Below, piece after piece: positions 32,431-40,034 of a stretch of DNA of 64,000 nt. The notes beneath the pieces were generated by a model. That model ran no database searches, had not been told where the DNA came from, and saw only the letters and a list, made by a program, of their open reading frames with translations. The translations under genes and the position numbers were made by a program. The DNA is from Nocardioidaceae bacterium SCSIO 66511 (GTDB taxonomy: Bacteria; Actinomycetota; Actinomycetes; Propionibacteriales; Nocardioidaceae). Position 1 is the first letter of the stretch, and every line of letters starts with the position of its first letter. The stretch spans positions 248,001 through 312,000 of the forward strand of contig CP095846.1 in assembly GCA_023100825.1 (NCBI GenBank), written 5' to 3'.

Positions 32431-33432
32431 TCAGCCGTGCTGAGTGCGCCGCTCTGCTCGCCGCTCGGACTTGGCGGTGAGCTTGTCGCCGTACTTCTCG
32501 AACTCCTCCGGGCTGAGGCCGCGGGTGTTCTTCGGCATGCCCGCGATGTTCGGACGCGAGCAGCTGAACGACCCGGAACCGCCGAAGTGCGAGAGTGCGC
32601 GGTTGGCGACGTCGCAGCGGGCGGCGTCCTCCGTACCGTCACCGACCGGGTAGCCGATCGCGGCATTGACCGCGCCCATGTCGAGGTTGTCGGCCATCGT
32701 GTTGATGTCGCGCGCCTGGGTCCAGTACCAGGTGGCGATCTTGCCGCTCCAGTCGATCGACATCGCCAAGTCGGGATCGCCGAGGAGGTCGATGCCGAGG
32801 TACTCGCCGGCGGGCCCGTAGTTGAAGTCACCGGTCAGCTGGATGTAGCCACGGCCGCCGTACGTGCGCGTGTCGCCTTCTTCGCGGCGGTCGTACTCGA
32901 CGTTCGACTCATGCGAGAGGGTGGCGATGAACGCGGCCTTGCGCTCGGGCGTGTTGATGCCGGCCTCTTCCATCGCGGCGTTGAGATTCGGCATGCCCTC
33001 GTCGATCTTGGCCAGATCGCGTACCTTCTCCGGCACGATCGCCTCAACGTCGTCGGCCGTCACTCCGTCGTCGCTGGGGGGTGGCTCGTCACCCTCGCAC
33101 TCGGGTACGCCGGGGAGCTTGCTCTCGACGACATCGACGTACGCGACGGTCACGTAGCCGTTGAGGTCGGGGACCTTCGCCCACCAGTTGCTCTTCGCCC
33201 CGTTTCCGAGGTCGATGGTCTCGCCCGACGCCTGGCATTCGACGTCGATCGTCGTCGGGCCGGGCAGCGACCCGACGACCGATGACTGGGTATTCGGTTC
33301 GGCGCGAACGTTGACGTTCGTGCCGTACGTGGTGAACTCGGCGGCATGCGCAGGGCCCGCAACGACAAGCGTCGTCGCGCCGATGGCCACGGCTCCGCCT
33401 ATCGCGGCGATCGGTCGAAGTTTGCGGATCAC
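32431..33432 (-). CDS. Secreted SH3b plus GH19 chitinase/lysozyme-like enzyme
   Basis: A 333-residue secreted protein. GTG 33432 is chosen because GAAGGGA lies eight bases upstream and a clean signal peptide follows (basic start, long hydrophobic core, cleavage after AHA). Residues of about 33-105 form a bacterial SH3 domain (YGTNVNVRAEPNTQSSVVGS). After a Pro/Asp-rich linker comes a GH19-type catalytic domain: FIATLSHESNVEYD with the catalytic Glu, then YGGRGYIQLTGDFNYG. It ends with a charged tail. GH19 members of this form cut chitin or, with SH3b domains, peptidoglycan. Its neighbour upstream encodes a kinase with a peptidoglycan-lysis-like domain, which favours a cell-wall role. Confidence 0.85.
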   Translation of the reverse strand: MIRKLRPIAAIGGAVAIGATTLVVAGPAHAAEFTTYGTNVNVRAEPNTQSSVVGSLPGPTTIDVECQASGETIDLGNGAKSNWWAKVPDLNGYVTVAYVDVVESKLPGVPECEGDEPPPSDDGVTADDVEAIVPEKVRDLAKIDEGMPNLNAAMEEAGINTPERKAAFIATLSHESNVEYDRREEGDTRTYGGRGYIQLTGDFNYGPAGEYLGIDLLGDPDLAMSIDWSGKIATWYWTQARDINTMADNLDMGAVNAAIGYPVGDGTEDAARCDVANRALSHFGGSGSFSCSRPNIAGMPKNTRGLSPEEFEKYGDKLTAKSERRAERRTQHG

Positions 33433-33537
33433 GGTGTTGTTCCCTTCGTCGATGTCGGTACGCGACATCGACCGCGTACCCCGACGAAGGTGACCTACCC
33501 CAGGCACTGGGTGCTTACACCTGTGACCGCGTTGGGA

Positions 33538-35118
33538 TCAGTCTGCGGAGAACTCGTCGAGGTGGCCGGCCACCTCGCTGGCGTATTCGCGGTATTCCGG
33601 TGGAACGCCGCCGAACTCGTTGACGGTCTTATCGCTGGTGCGGAACGCGACCGCGCGATAGACGGGGTCGTTGGCCGGAACCTTCTTGAGGCGTCCGCCG
33701 ACCCAGCAGAGGTAGTCGGTGAGGGCATTGATCGAGTCTCGGGGGTCGAACACCGATCGGTTCGGGTGGTTCTCGGTGTCGGCCCAGGCGTCGAAGATCG
33801 ACGGGGTCCACATCGCGATGCCGAACTCGCCCGTGCTGGGCGAACGCTTGTCCGGGTTGAAGCCGGACTCCGTCGCGACGACTGCCGCGACGAACGCCGG
33901 CGTGACTGCGGGGTCGCTGCACCGGTGTGCGCTGTTGGTGATCATCGCGCGGTACTTGGTTGGGACCTCGGCGTAGTCGGCGATCTCGCCCGACGAGACG
34001 GACGCGGCATCGACGGTGCCGGGCTGGCCAGATGGGTTCTCGCGGGTGGTCTGCGAGGCGTTCTCAGGAGAGTCATCCTGGCTGTAGACGAGCGCGCTGG
34101 CACCGGCGGCGGCGAGCGCGGCAACGACGGCGGCTGCGACCCCTACGGAGATGTGCATGCGCAGCGAGCGGAGTCGTGTCGGGAGGTCTCGGGCGGCAGC
34201 GTCGGCCTCGATCGGCTTCGATGCGAGGTCGTGGATCCGCTTCGCGAGCGTACCGGCAAGGGCTCCGCGTGCCGCAGGATCCGGGTTCAGGCAGTTGGCG
34301 ATGAGCGTACGCCAGGCGGGCGCGAGCGACGGGTGGATCTGCATGCCGTCGCCGGTTGCGGCGAACTGTCGAACAGCCGTTGCTCGCGTACGCGGATCGC
34401 AACCGGGGAAGGGGTGTCGCCCACCGCTGAGCAGTCGATGCGCGAGTACGCCGAACGCCCAGATGTCGCGGCTCGGCCGGGCCTCGACGCCGCGGTCGTC
34501 GACGGGAGCCGACCACCATTCGGCCGGCGTGTAGTCGAACGAGCCGAGTTGCGGGATGAAGGCGTGCGTACCGTCGAGCTCCGCGCTGAGGCCGAAGTCG
34601 GCGAGTCGGACACTTCCATCGTCCATGACCAGCACGTTGGATGCGGAGACGTCGCCGTGCACCCAGCCGGCGGTGTGCACATCGTCGAGGGCTTCGGCGA
34701 GGCCGCGCAGCATGTCGACCGCGTCGGGCACGGGGCCTTCGCCGGTGGCGTCGGCGAGGATGTCGCGAAGGCTGCATCGAGCGCGCTCCATCACGATCAC
34801 GGTGCAGCCGTCGAGGTCGGGATCGCGCTCGTCTTCGATGGTGTGCACTTCGTACGTGCGTACGAGGTGGTCGCCGCGGACGTTTGCGCCGAAGGCGCGC
34901 TCGCGATCGGCGAGGTCTTGGACCGTTGCGCGCTGGGCGGGCGTCAGCGCGTTGCCGGGAAGGAACTTGCACGCTGCTGTCGACGGTGTGCCGTCGTCGG
35001 TGCGGACGGCGTCGTACACGCTTCCCCAACAACCGCTGGCGATCGGCTTCCGGATGCGCCAGGTGCCTACCTGGTAGTCGACTGGTACGTCGACTGCCCA
35101 GCCTGCTCGGTTGCTCAT
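33538..35118 (-). CDS. Ser/Thr protein kinase fused to a lytic-transglycosylase-like extracytoplasmic domain
   Basis: A 526-residue membrane kinase. Residues 15-300 form a Hanks-type kinase: Gly-loop IASGCWGSVYDA, ATP-binding Lys51 (ACKFLP), catalytic loop HGDVSASNV (Asp156, HGD rather than HRD), DFG at 174-176, and RDIWAFGVLAHRLLSGG. A single membrane helix (321-345) leads to a Ser/Thr-rich stalk and a C-terminal domain (about 388-526) resembling the SLT fold: FVAAVVATESGFNPD with a candidate catalytic Glu417, then GEFGIAMWTPSIFDAWA. Usual sensor domains of such kinases are PASTA or NHL; an SLT-like module suggests it binds or cuts peptidoglycan. Its ATG overlaps the stop of the FHA gene. 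A GH19 muralytic gene follows. Confidence 0.88.
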   Translation of the reverse strand: MSNRAGWAVDVPVDYQVGTWRIRKPIASGCWGSVYDAVRTDDGTPSTAACKFLPGNALTPAQRATVQDLADRERAFGANVRGDHLVRTYEVHTIEDERDPDLDGCTVIVMERARCSLRDILADATGEGPVPDAVDMLRGLAEALDDVHTAGWVHGDVSASNVLVMDDGSVRLADFGLSAELDGTHAFIPQLGSFDYTPAEWWSAPVDDRGVEARPSRDIWAFGVLAHRLLSGGRHPFPGCDPRTRATAVRQFAATGDGMQIHPSLAPAWRTLIANCLNPDPAARGALAGTLAKRIHDLASKPIEADAAARDLPTRLRSLRMHISVGVAAAVVAALAAAGASALVYSQDDSPENASQTTRENPSGQPGTVDAASVSSGEIADYAEVPTKYRAMITNSAHRCSDPAVTPAFVAAVVATESGFNPDKRSPSTGEFGIAMWTPSIFDAWADTENHPNRSVFDPRDSINALTDYLCWVGGRLKKVPANDPVYRAVAFRTSDKTVNEFGGVPPEYREYASEVAGHLDEFSAD

Positions 35119-35870
35119 GCGTCGCTCCCTTCGCGTCTGCTCAGGATGCCCAGGTGGTCTTCGGTGACGAGATTGAAGCGCAGGGCGAGCGCGACGAGGG
35201 ATGCGCGTTTCGACTCGGCTCGGTCTGCCTCACCGGCCGCGCGGAGGCGCAGTTTGGTCTCGGCGAGGTAGTTGATGTGGTAGTCGACGGCAGAGCGACT
35301 CATCCGCTCGCCGGACGGAGCGAGGCGCGCCGCCACATCGTCGCTGCTCGGGATCGCGACACTCGAGGGGTCGCGCAGCCGCGGCTCGCACAGAGCCACG
35401 AGAACTCGGAAGTACTTCGATGTCTCATCCAGTACGAACGGTTTGACCGTCGTATCTCCCGCAACCGCCGGGCCGCTGTCGAGGTACGCGTGCTGCGGCG
35501 CGTACACGTGGAGGTCGTACGTGCCCGCGTCGACCGGGATGAGGAGGCGGGACAGCTCGAACGGCACCGGCGCATCGACCCGGCGCGGCGGGACCTTGAC
35601 GTGTTCGCCTGCGCCTTCGAGGTTCTCGACGACGTACGTGACGGTGCTCGTGTTGGTCAGCAACCAGTAGTCGGCAACCGCGCGGATGCTCCCGGCGCGT
35701 CGAGAGACCTCGGCGCTGTGCAACGCCATGTCGACGTCGACGTCGGGGCTGCCACGGCCGAAGGTGAGCGACTGGCCGGGCTCGAGGTCGCGCACAGCGT
35801 CTCGGCGGGTGGCTTCGTCGCAGCCCGGACTGCGGGTGATGGTGACGTCTTCGACGGTGACGGACGACAA
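35115..35870 (-). CDS. FHA-domain protein with C-terminal winged-helix region
   Basis: About 251 residues; the only available start in the conserved region is a TTG (35870), so the true start is uncertain. The N-terminal half contains an FHA-like core (LTFGRGSPDVDVDMAL, SAEVSRRAGSIRAV, YWLLTNTSTV), which would bind phosphothreonine. The middle is beta-rich. The last 90 residues (YFRVLVALCEPRL, VAARLAPSGERMSRSAVDYHI, ALALRFNLVTEDHLG) look like a winged-helix DNA-binding domain. The stop overlaps the ATG of the kinase-SLT gene. It is the likely phospho-dependent output or adaptor of that kinase. Confidence 0.75.
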   Translation of the reverse strand: MSSVTVEDVTITRSPGCDEATRRDAVRDLEPGQSLTFGRGSPDVDVDMALHSAEVSRRAGSIRAVADYWLLTNTSTVTYVVENLEGAGEHVKVPPRRVDAPVPFELSRLLIPVDAGTYDLHVYAPQHAYLDSGPAVAGDTTVKPFVLDETSKYFRVLVALCEPRLRDPSSVAIPSSDDVAARLAPSGERMSRSAVDYHINYLAETKLRLRAAGEADRAESKRASLVALALRFNLVTEDHLGILSRREGSDA

Positions 35871-35991
35871 GACGATTGCTTTCGGCGAGAGGGCCGCGCT
35901 TGTGGCGTGGCTGGCTTTCTTCGGGCAAACACAGTTTTACCGCAATCGTCCCACTTTTAAACACCCTGCAGCGAGAATTAGTGGGTGAACG

Positions 35992-36771: not shown

Positions 36772-36872
36772 GCTACGTACGACTGCTCTCCCGGGGGCGG
36801 GAACGCAGAACCCGCCCCGATTTAGTCTCAGCGACGGAGAGCGGCTAGACTCTGCGAGGCCACAACGCCACT

Positions 36873-36945
36873 GCGCTCGTAGCTCAACGGATAGAGCATC
36901 TGACTACGGATCAGAAGGTTGGGGGTTCGAATCCCTCCGAGCGCG
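36873..36945 (+). tRNA. tRNA-Arg(ACG), integration site of the mobile element
   Basis: Acceptor GCGCTCG pairs with CGAGCGC, the anticodon loop is CTACGGA (ACG), and the T-arm is GGGGGTTCGAATCCCTC-like. CCA is not encoded. An excisionase and a tyrosine integrase begin about 210 bases downstream in the same direction, the usual layout when a tRNA 3' end serves as attachment site. Confidence 0.95.
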
Positions 36946-36952
36946 CCCACCT

Positions 36953-36995
36953 CAAACGGCCTCTGACCTGCGTAAACGCAGTCGGGGGCCGTTTG
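36953..36995 (+). terminator. tRNA-Arg terminator hairpin
   Basis: CAAACGGCC pairs with GGCCGTTTG, and the inner bases continue the stem with one bulge to a TAAA loop (CTGCG TAAA CGCAG). It lies eight bases after the tRNA. If it belongs to the core, the attachment site lies within the tRNA end or this hairpin. Confidence 0.75.
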
Positions 36996-37159
36996 CACTT
37001 CTCGCCCATCCCCGCCTCGACGGTCTCAACAACGGTCCAAGAACTCCGGCCGGACAGTCGTGGCGCCGCGAGTGACACTGGGCCGCATGAGGTCGCACCC
37101 GATACCTGAAATTTCCGCGAACGTGAACGCCAGCGGGCTGCTCGTTCCCGTGGGTGGGT

Positions 37160-37441
37160 ATGAACACGATGACTGACACCGACCCGACGCCCCACTCGTC
37201 CCACTCCCCCGGCTGGCGAGCGCCCCAGGAGACGCACACCTCCCCGGACACCCTGTTGCTGAATCTGAACGAGGTCGCTGAACAGCTGCGTTGCATGCGC
37301 CGCAGCGTCGAGCGCTACATCGCAGCGCGACGCCTTTTCGCGCTACACATCGGCCGCTCCGTGCGCGTCGAACGCCGTGAGCTCGAAGAATTCATCCAGC
37401 GCATGCGTGCACGAGAGACTCGCTATGGGCAGACCGCGTAG
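37160..37441 (+). CDS. Excisionase-type DNA-binding protein
   Basis: About 93 residues. ATG 37160, ATG 37169 and GTG 37154 are all possible starts. A disordered N-terminus leads to an excisionase/MerR-like winged helix: LLNLNEVAEQLRCMRRSVER, ARRLFALHIGRSVRVERREL. This is the helix-turn-helix 17 type used by Xis proteins and directs excision together with the integrase. It overlaps the integrase start by 17 bases, as is typical for mobile-element xis-int pairs. Confidence 0.85.
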   Translation: MNTMTDTDPTPHSSHSPGWRAPQETHTSPDTLLLNLNEVAEQLRCMRRSVERYIAARRLFALHIGRSVRVERRELEEFIQRMRARETRYGQTA

Positions 37442-38663
37442 AGCACCCGACGAGACGACGCCGTCGATCTACAAGGGCTACGACGGTCTGTGGCATGCCC
37501 GGGTCGCTATGCGGATCAGGGCCGACGGCAGCACCGAACGCAAACACGTCCGGCGTAAGGACCGTGCAGAACTCGTCAAAGTCGTACGGGGGCTCGAGCG
37601 CAGCCGCGACAACGGCAGCTACGCCTGGACCGAAGATGACCCGACGCTCGCACAATGGATCGAGCATTGGCTGTCTGCCATCTTGCCAATGAGCGCACGA
37701 CCCAAGACCCTGGCCACTTACCGATCACAGATGGTCCGTCACCTCCTCCCAGCGCTTGGTCACTGCCGACTCAGCGAACTTCGGCCCGAGCACCTGGAGA
37801 ACCTCTACATCTCGCTCGGGCACGATGGCGCATCGGTGCCCACGATCCGTGCCGTGCACCGCGTCGTACGCTCCGCCCTCAACGAGGCGATCCGACGTCG
37901 CCGGCTGCTCCACAACCCGGCCCAGGTGGCGCGACCACCCCGACTCATCGAGAACGAAGCTGACCCGCTGACCGTCGACGAGTGCCGCCGAGTCCTGGAA
38001 GAGGCCGCAACCAAACGCAACGGTCCACGATGGGCGATCGCCCTGTCGCTCGGTCTACGCCAAGGCGAAGCGCTCGGACTGCTGTGGTCCGACCTCGACC
38101 TCGACGACGGCACACTGACCGTGCGCCGCTCCGCCCAGCGCCTCACCTGGCAGCATGGATGCTAGCCCGGACTGGAAGGCCCGTCATGCGAGCGCACCCG
38201 AGGCGGAAGCTGCCCGCAGCGGCGCGACGGAGGACTGGTTCTGGTCGAGCCCAAGACGAAGGCTTCCCGTCGCACCATAGTGCTTCCCCGCCCGCTGCGT
38301 GACGAACTCCGTGCCCACCGCGCCGAACAGGCGCGAGAACGTCTGGCTGCGGGGCCCGCCTGGGTCGGCGAACACAACCTGGTGTTCGCCACCGAGTGGG
38401 GCCAGGTCATCGACCCCGTCAATGATGGGCAGTCCTGGCGACGCCTCCTCGAGTCGGCGGGCGTGCGCAAGGCGCGAGTCCACGACGCCCGCCACACCGC
38501 CGCCACCCTCCTTCTCCTCGAGGAGACCGATCTGCGCACCGTGATGGCCATCATGGGATGGACCGAACTTGCCACCGCGCAGCGCTACACCCACGCCGTC
38601 GACGAGCTGAGAAGTCGCGCAGCGGCACGGATGGGCAGCCTCCTCTGGAGCAGTGCACGGTGA
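37425..38663 (+). pseudogene. Tyrosine recombinase/integrase interrupted by an in-frame TAG
   Basis: From ATG 37425 the frame encodes an AP2-like/SAM-like N-terminal arm-binding region (YKGYDGLWHARVAMRIRADG), the core-binding domain and the catalytic domain. Arg I lies in LSLGLRQGEALGLLWSD. Codon 247 is TAG (38163-38165), after LTWQHGC. The same frame then continues with a Cys-containing insert, GGLVLVEPKTKASRRTIVLP, the HDARHTAATLLL box (His-x-x-Arg) and the nucleophile region TAQRYTHAVDEL, ending at 38663. Relatives have uninterrupted sequence between HGC and GGLV. Without readthrough the product lacks most catalytic residues, which would lock the element in place. A TGG-to-TAG change is plausible. 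Confidence 0.88.
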
Positions 38664-38800
38664 GGCCTGAACATGATAAGAAGCACGACCGGAGCAGGGT
38701 CACCGCCCTCCGAATGCTCAACTGGGCGGATCTATCGCGCCAACGAGGGAACGTGGTGAACCGCGGATTATGAGCACGGCCGTGCGTATCCTGACCCCCG

Positions 38801-38830
38801 TACTATTGTGCGACAAATCGTACAATAGTA
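38801..38830. promoter_or_regulatory. Palindromic operator of the HEPN/MNT pair
   Basis: The 13-base arms TACTATTGTGCGA and TCGTACAATAGTA match in all but one position around CAAA. The right arm contains TACAAT, a good -10 hexamer. It lies 17 bases before the preferred start (38848) of the nucleotidyltransferase. This is the usual place for autoregulation by a toxin-antitoxin antitoxin; the wHTH of that protein could bind it. Confidence 0.75.
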
Positions 38831-38847
38831 TGATCAAGGTCATGGAC

Positions 38848-39630
38848 ATGAGCGAGCCACTCCGCGCCTTGACACCGACGTTGGATGCGCCCGTGCTGCG
38901 CGTGCTCGCCGGTACCGCAGGAGAGATGACTCGCCAACAGGTCACTCGGCTGGTGCACGACGCCAGCGAAGCGGGCGTCCGCAAGGTGCTGCGCCGCCTC
39001 GCCGGTCAGGGGATCGTCCTCGAACGACGGATCGGAACGCAGTACACGTACGCAGCCAATCGGGACCATCTCATGTGGCGCGCCGTCGATGCCGCCGTCA
39101 CGGCGGGCGAGCGTCTGGACGGCCGGATCCGAACCCACATCGAGAACTGGGCCGTCGCTCCCCTGTCGGTCCAGATCTTCGGATCGGCCGCAACCGGCAG
39201 TGCGACGGGGGAATCGGATATCGATCTGTTGCTATACCGGTCAAACCTAAACGCCGCCGACCAAGCAACGTGGGATGAACAGACCACCGCACTACGCGCA
39301 GCCATCGAACAGTGGACGGGCAATGCATGCGAGATTCTCGAGATTGACCCACCGACATTGGTGGACATGGCCGCTGAGGCCGAGCCCGTGCTCGGCTCGT
39401 CGATGCGACGAATCGCCGGTGTCCGGCTCGAGAAGGCCACACCGAGCGCCTCGCTCGCGAGAACCCTTCGCGATACGGCATCGAGCAGGGCTCGTGGTAC
39501 CAACTGGGCCAAGATCCCAGAGGTCGCCAAGAGCGTCTCGCCGGAGCTACGGAGGACAATCGAAGAGCTGTTCACCTCGATGAATACGACGGTGCCACCG
39601 CAACTGGCGAAGGCGATGCGATCACAGTGA
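38848..39630 (+). CDS. wHTH plus MNT-type nucleotidyltransferase (antitoxin-like)
   Basis: About 260 residues. ATG 38848 is preferred because AAGG lies eight bases upstream; earlier in-frame ATGs fall in the operator palindrome. Residues 1-75 are a winged helix (LRVLAGTAGEMTRQQVTRLV, VRKVLRRLAGQGIVLER). A minimal nucleotidyltransferase domain follows with IFGSAATGSATGESDIDLLL, the GSx(n)DxD signature of MNT proteins. In HEPN/MNT systems the MNT partner AMPylates or neutralises the HEPN RNase. Its stop overlaps the start of the HEPN-like gene. Confidence 0.85.
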   Translation: MSEPLRALTPTLDAPVLRVLAGTAGEMTRQQVTRLVHDASEAGVRKVLRRLAGQGIVLERRIGTQYTYAANRDHLMWRAVDAAVTAGERLDGRIRTHIENWAVAPLSVQIFGSAATGSATGESDIDLLLYRSNLNAADQATWDEQTTALRAAIEQWTGNACEILEIDPPTLVDMAAEAEPVLGSSMRRIAGVRLEKATPSASLARTLRDTASSRARGTNWAKIPEVAKSVSPELRRTIEELFTSMNTTVPPQLAKAMRSQ

Positions 39631-40034
39631 TGGTCCGCGCTGACAAGACCCGCCCTGCCAGCCGAACCCAGGCGGCGACCCGACTTGCCGATGCGCGCGC
39701 GTTCCTGCAGCAGGCCGAAATCAGCGCCGAACTCATCGATAGCTCTCGACGCGATGCCGCCGTCGTCTCATCAGCAGTCCTTGCCGGAATCGCCGCCGCC
39801 GACGCAGCTTGCGGCGCACGACTCGGCGAAATCGCTGTGGGATCACACGACTACGGACCGCGCCTCCTCAAACGAGTAGCGGGAAGCGAACGAAGTGTCA
39901 CGGCGCTGTCACGTCTCCTGAGTATCAAAACGAGTTCGCAGTACGCAGGCGAGTCGATCGGCGTCAGGCACGCGACCGAAGCCACCGAACGCGCACGTCG
40001 GATCGTCGAATTCGCCGAAAGCTGTCTGCAGTGA
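39627..40034 (+). CDS. HEPN-domain protein (toxin-like partner)
   Basis: A 135-residue, largely helical protein. Its ATG overlaps the nucleotidyltransferase stop (ATGATG, so 39630 is an alternative). The core SSAVLAGIAAADAACGARLG, LSRLLSIKTSSQYAGESIG and ATERARRIVEFAES resembles HEPN proteins paired with nucleotidyltransferases. The canonical RX4-6H RNase motif is not evident: the nearest candidates are an Arg followed by HATEA and a His in GSHDYG. Either it is a divergent RNase or a non-catalytic HEPN. The operon order (MNT before HEPN) and overlap support a toxin-antitoxin pair. Confidence 0.75.
   Translation: MMVRADKTRPASRTQAATRLADARAFLQQAEISAELIDSSRRDAAVVSSAVLAGIAAADAACGARLGEIAVGSHDYGPRLLKRVAGSERSVTALSRLLSIKTSSQYAGESIGVRHATEATERARRIVEFAESCLQ

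Follow-up and report, generated by a model that had tools for sequence, protein, structure and literature searches.

Does a transmembrane Ser/Thr kinase whose outer part is related to lytic transglycosylases cut the cell wall, or does it read it? The question is raised by three minus-strand genes found between positions 32431 and 35870 of a 64,000-nucleotide stretch of contig CP095846.1 from Nocardioidaceae bacterium SCSIO 66511, hereafter called the window. From upstream to downstream, they encode an FHA protein (35115..35870, 251 aa, TTG start), a Hanks-type transmembrane kinase with an SLT-derived ectodomain (33538..35118, 526 aa) and a secreted SH3b-GH19 enzyme (32431..33432, 333 aa from its most likely start, the GTG at 33432, within an open reading frame (ORF) extending to 33507). 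A preliminary description, made from the sequence, had proposed that the kinase senses or cuts wall material and signals through an FHA-linked DNA-binding protein. Its gene coordinates and its outline of a conserved module are correct, while its interpretation is partly supported: the FHA and kinase genes form a pair, with an SLT-type ectodomain on the kinase, which is present in many actinobacteria and has apparently not been described so far. All features given below lie on the minus strand unless a plus strand is indicated.

The FHA-kinase gene pair and its distribution

In the window, the FHA and kinase genes overlap by four bases (ATGA). At least 471 relatives of the FHA protein were found in genome contigs, of which the best 80 were fetched and examined; all of these 80 are actinobacterial, from Streptomyces, Kitasatospora, Nonomuraea, Actinoplanes, Microtetraspora, Catenulisporales and others. 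An SLT-type kinase gene lies within 3 kb of the FHA gene in 66 of the 78 gene-called loci (47 tandem, 11 convergent and 8 divergent), the 4-base overlap being the most frequent spacing in the tandem pairs. Since this linkage has been kept through three orientations, it points to a joint function rather than to operon inertia. Among 66 kinases adjoining an FHA gene that were examined, 61 have an SLT-like ectodomain. Other ectodomains include an I36 (inhibitor-type) domain in at least one locus, on a plasmid of Streptomyces sp. NBC_01001 (L030, 3830-7457), where the adjoining secreted M23 peptidase carries the same I36 domain, and small uncharacterised domains elsewhere. In two Actinacidiphila loci (L066 and L078), the FHA gene is followed by the gene of an unrelated HRD-type kinase, whose ectodomain is small and bears cysteine; the partner may have been replaced there. 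As a whole, the system is patchily distributed in even samples: of 396 genomes sampled across the phylum, 10 encode the FHA protein, and of 246 sampled from the bacterial family, 6 encode the SLT ectodomain or secreted relatives of it.

At the level of the genus, the module is flanked by a methyltransferase gene upstream and a phosphoenolpyruvate carboxykinase (PEPCK) gene downstream, and the order PEPCK-GH19-kinase-FHA-methyltransferase is retained in a sister species (G591), with about 71-90% protein identity. The ratios of nonsynonymous to synonymous substitutions (NG86 dN/dS) between the two species are about 0.29 for the GH19 gene, 0.22 for the kinase gene and 0.10 for the FHA gene, all three being under purifying selection. 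The co-occurrence of the three genes, a survey of which the preliminary description had proposed as a check, holds for the FHA-kinase pair across actinobacteria and in three gene orders; the GH19 gene was observed beside the pair in the window's genus only (both species), other secreted SH3b or wall-enzyme genes taking its place elsewhere.

The kinase and its SLT-derived ectodomain

The kinase domain (residues 22-287, 34258..35055; Pfam 7.8e-24) is followed by a single membrane helix (residues 326-344, 34087..34143), the one hydrophobic segment in the hydropathy profile. Lys51, Glu73, Asp156, Asn161 and Asp174, which make up the Hanks catalytic set including the DFG Asp, are invariant in the 62 aligned kinases, so that the kinase should be active. 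Most members have HGD and not HRD in the catalytic loop. The Lys of this loop, found in the relatives within HGDLKPxN, is replaced by Ser in the window (HGDVSASN, 34639-34662, residues 153-160), a change seen in both species of the genus and in no other of the 62 kinases.

The ectodomain spans residues 369-526 (33541..34014). In the window kinase, Pfam SLT matches residues 403-478 (4.1e-8), and among 53 ectodomains SLT was detected in 44 and SLT_2 in 30 (E ≤ 0.05). The model built from the 53-sequence alignment (pLDDT 93, pTM 0.89) has its best structural matches among the lytic transglycosylases MltF, Slt, MltC and Slt70 (VIA Z 15-16.5; Foldseek probability 1.00). The architecture first proposed from the sequence, with one membrane helix and a C-terminal SLT-like domain, is confirmed, and the structural comparison that had been suggested as a check gave an SLT fold, with Z reaching 16.5. 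With the ectodomain profile, secreted SLT-M23 proteins of the canonical type are also retrieved from the same bacterial family (E 1e-24 to 1e-26). Two such proteins (L134, 446-1474; L135, 1033-2070), close kin of the kinase ectodomain, have intact GxxQ and AYN motifs.

The functions assigned here to these and the remaining SLT motif, three in all, follow general knowledge of the lytic transglycosylase family. Glu417 (codon 33868..33870), already named in the preliminary description as candidate catalytic residue, indeed occupies the catalytic-acid position, aligning with the Glu-Ser motif (motif I) of the SLT enzymes, and is retained in 56 of 60 relatives. The other two motifs are altered: the Gln of motif II (GxxQ) is replaced by Met or Arg within a near-invariant G-x-A-x-W-T-P (Met436 in the window), and the Asn of motif III (AYN) is mostly Arg (Arg493 in the window), whereas the two secreted SLT-M23 proteins and E. 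coli Slt70 keep both the Gln and the Asn. In four members Glu417 itself is replaced by Gln, Met or Ala with the FHA gene still adjoining, which indicates that cutting is unnecessary in those members. Two cysteines, Cys400 and Cys471, are invariant among the ectodomain relatives, consistent with an extracellular disulfide. Because of the changes in motifs II and III, and of members that have lost the Glu while retaining the FHA-kinase pair, sensing is preferred to cutting in the alternative originally left between the two: the ectodomain is probably an SLT-derived sensor or receptor and not an ordinary enzyme, with residual catalysis possible.

The FHA partner, the secreted neighbours and the readings of the module

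The FHA protein comprises an N-terminal FHA fold (residues 7-126, 35493..35852) and a C-terminal helical domain (residues 150-242, 35145..35423). Pfam FHA had no match in the window protein and was matched in 12 of 51 relatives. The fold assignment comes from the model (pLDDT 86), with Foldseek and VIA matches to FHA structures (Z 12.6; Z 11.3 for the FHA domain of EmbR), and from conservation: among the residues contacting phosphothreonine, Gly38-Arg39 are invariant in 51 of 51 sequences and Ser56 occurs in 48 of these, while Ala stands three positions after Ser56, where a His is usual. In the C-terminal part (residues 152-242), the model has five helices, no strands and no wing. By eye, its sequence resembles a helix-turn-helix (HTH), with P..EV..RL....LTRSAVnyHIDYLA..KL, and no HTH family was found for it by Pfam, by a PDB profile search or by profile-profile comparison with LuxR- and OmpR-type domains; hhalign against OmpR-type domains of the same genome gave a probability of 2.7%, with a shallow alignment. 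No profile supported the winged-helix label of the preliminary description or a LuxR-type (GerE) label, and neither is adopted here; the FHA assignment stands. DNA binding by the FHA partner is a plausible hypothesis.

The GH19 protein carries an SH3b domain (33136..33318; Pfam SH3_3 4.9e-6), of the same type as that found in the relatives' neighbours, and a GH19 core (32677..32871; Pfam 6.5e-10, 39.6 bits vs. a curated cut-off of 25.5, and matches to PHROG endolysin families). The GTG at 33432 (VIRKLRPIAAIGG...AHA) was chosen as its start because it best fits a ribosome site and a signal peptide; it leaves a gap of 105 bases to the kinase gene, in agreement with the spacing initially reported for this secreted SH3b-GH19 gene, while the longer start at 33507 would leave 30 bases. 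A profile search seeded with the SH3b of the window found SH3b genes at 34 of the 317 positions lying between -1 and +3 of the FHA gene vs. 11 of 769 positions farther away (Fisher 6e-11, relatedness ignored; with FHA proteins clustered at 80% identity, 7 of 26 clusters near vs. 1 far). The domains of these and other secreted neighbours include beta-lactamase-like plus SH3b (with weak Pfam scores), NlpC/P60 with four SH3b, M23, and small secreted SH3b proteins. In Nonomuraea, the FHA gene is directly preceded by an SH3b gene in the same orientation.

With somewhat better than even confidence, we read the module as a wall-sensing kinase-FHA signalling pair, following the logic of PknH-EmbR with different parts, in which the ligand, the phosphorylation of the FHA partner, its DNA binding and its target genes are the steps that we infer. 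The outer SLT-derived domain would most likely bind glycan strands or their fragments rather than cut them efficiently. Binding would alter the kinase inside the cell, leading to autophosphorylation and/or to phosphorylation of the FHA partner, whose FHA domain would read phosphothreonine. The helical C-terminal domain of the partner would then be the output, most likely transcription control, with secreted wall proteins encoded nearby among its targets, in the window the SH3b-GH19 enzyme. In favour of this reading speak the gene order, the modelled folds, the invariant kinase core, the FHA contact residues, the changed SLT active site, the linkage kept in three orientations and the SH3b genes enriched beside the pair, all of them shown by computation. 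More tentatively, and with rather less confidence, the module may represent a widespread actinobacterial class in which a lytic transglycosylase fold serves a Hanks kinase as its receptor for glycan, and the kinase is connected one-to-one with an FHA regulator of local wall enzymes, the ectodomain (SLT, I36 or others) being exchangeable to suit extracellular substrates.

Several observations weigh against wall sensing as set out here. An SLT-kinase is not found nearby in 12 of the 78 loci, some of which are at contig ends and one of which has a different ectodomain; with 56 of 60 relatives having the catalytic Glu, this residue is retained more often than mere binding would require; the SH3b link is found in just 7 of the 26 FHA clusters and is partly driven by related Streptomyces; and the C-terminal domain of the FHA protein matches no HTH family among those searched. 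The persistence of the Glu-Ser motif in most members would suit a membrane-tethered enzyme under kinase control, whose SLT domain still cuts glycan strands for local wall remodelling in an inside-out manner, as would the intact SLT fold of the model and the neighbouring genes for secreted wall enzymes. We nevertheless consider this unlikely, given the Met or Arg in place of the motif-II Gln and the prevailing Arg in motif III where canonical actinobacterial relatives keep Gln and AYN, the loss of the Glu in some members with the gene pair retained, and the exchange of SLT for I36 or other ectodomains in some members.

A real kinase-FHA pair could also have another output, the FHA protein acting as a phospho-dependent adaptor or enzyme regulator that does not bind DNA and the GH19/SH3b neighbours not being its targets. 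Although HTH-like spacing and sequence can be recognised by eye in the C-terminal domain, SH3b genes are enriched beside the pair in several lineages and an SH3b gene directly precedes the FHA gene in Nonomuraea, this reading draws on the wingless model with no GerE or OmpR-type HTH profile match, on distant FHA relatives paired with kinases at other loci, some beside type VII secretion-like genes, and on the non-significance of the upstream pattern common to the FHA and GH19 genes; we regard it as improbable. An anti-phage or conflict module, with a kinase detecting a breach of the wall, is very improbable indeed. The kinase domain does score with PADLOC kinase models such as MAD6 and PD-T4-6, and a tRNA-Arg with integrase remnants adjoins the locus, but the NCBIfam MAD6 score of 62.1 bits is so far under the equivalog cut-off of 460 that the likeness is to protein kinases in general. 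Moreover, PADLOC gave no match on the FHA and GH19 proteins, and the neighbours, PEPCK and methyltransferase, are the same genes in the sister species.

The two species share an uninterrupted run of about 34 identical bases upstream of the FHA gene, vs. 79.5% identity overall; it contains a conserved block, GTTTAA-N15-GGTA (35938..35962), a possible promoter or operator. A similar block, GTGTAA-N15-GGTA (33496..33520), was tentatively recognised upstream of the GH19 gene. The pattern GTKTAA-N14-16-GGTA, derived from both blocks, has two matches in the 4.6-Mb genome, upstream of these same two genes. A common operator was rejected as evidence, since shuffled region pairs were equally alike in 104 of 400 trials. 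No sigma-B-like pattern was found upstream of the relatives' FHA genes (0 of 81). In several Streptosporangiales genera, the FHA gene is closely preceded by a palindrome, AACCTGGAAGGTT (L056, 7918-7930; L057, 6741-6753; L080, 7911-7923; variants in L060 and L102), the sole such site in those loci and a candidate autoregulatory operator.

Adjoining the module on the plus strand (36872-38663) are a tRNA-Arg, an excisionase-like HTH gene (37154-37441) and a tyrosine-integrase-like ORF with an in-frame stop at about 38163-38165, the remnant of an integrated element that apparently does not include the module. A phage origin of the module was considered and rejected, no phage record encoding a relative of the FHA protein. 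Further on (38770-40034, plus strand), a nucleotidyltransferase-like gene with an HTH-like N-terminus is followed by a small overlapping ORF (39627-40034), the two resembling a nucleotidyltransferase/HEPN-type toxin-antitoxin pair.

Comparison with known systems

For most Ser/Thr kinases of bacteria, the signal is not known. In the present case, a sensor fold with a known natural ligand, the peptidoglycan glycan strand, and a likely partner encoded next door make both signal and output directly testable. If true, wall sensing by this pair would give Gram-positive kinases a second route besides PASTA to read the wall, and would be a case of an enzyme fold turned receptor. In line with the preliminary description, which knew of no system of this exact make-up, a literature search found no description of a kinase that combines an SLT domain with an FHA partner, which is weak evidence as most subscription journals lay outside the search; an early survey of prokaryotic kinase architectures makes no mention of SLT or lytic enzymes (PMC1262709).

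In PASTA kinases (PknB, PrkC, Stk1), a Hanks kinase with one membrane helix likewise has an outer domain for wall recognition, and PrkC of B. subtilis has muropeptides as its ligands (PMC4601284); among the wall sensors described so far, such muropeptide-binding kinases come closest. The window kinase differs by having an SLT-derived domain in place of PASTA repeats: Pfam found none in it, and the NCBIfam PASTA-kinase model reached 67.6 bits vs. a cut-off of 450, on the kinase part only. With the GH23-type (family 1) lytic transglycosylases (Slt70, MltF, MltC and the actinobacterial SLT-M23 proteins), the ectodomain shares the fold, the Glu-Ser, the Tyr/Phe position of motif III and a Gly-(Val/Ile)-Pro, whereas it is fused to a kinase, has GIA(M/R)WTP for GxxQ and (Y/F)RT or similar for AYN, and lacks the Glu in some members. 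In more distant actinobacterial kinase-FHA pairs, the FHA protein shows about 28% identity along most of its length and its gene also adjoins a transmembrane kinase gene, but there the kinase gene comes first, the ectodomains are others and some pairs are near FtsK-like genes. At three such loci (L021, L023 and L027), the distant FHA relative lies between the transmembrane kinase gene and an FtsK/type VII secretion-like gene.

The nearest likeness in logic to a described system is with PknH-EmbR of Mycobacterium tuberculosis, where the gene of a one-helix transmembrane Ser/Thr kinase also adjoins that of an FHA protein; the kinase shares an operon with the FHA regulator and phosphorylates it in vitro (PMC9239209, PMC4601284), and a wall-related output has been proposed but is disputed by PMC9239209. 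EmbR starts with an OmpR-type winged helix, followed by a BTAD domain and, at its C-terminus, the FHA domain, whereas the window protein begins with its FHA domain and continues with a helical one, and no SLT domain is described for PknH (PMC9239209, PMC4601284). Within the known kind made of a transmembrane Hanks kinase and an FHA partner, the distinguishing feature of the present system is a probable receptor derived from a lytic transglycosylase.

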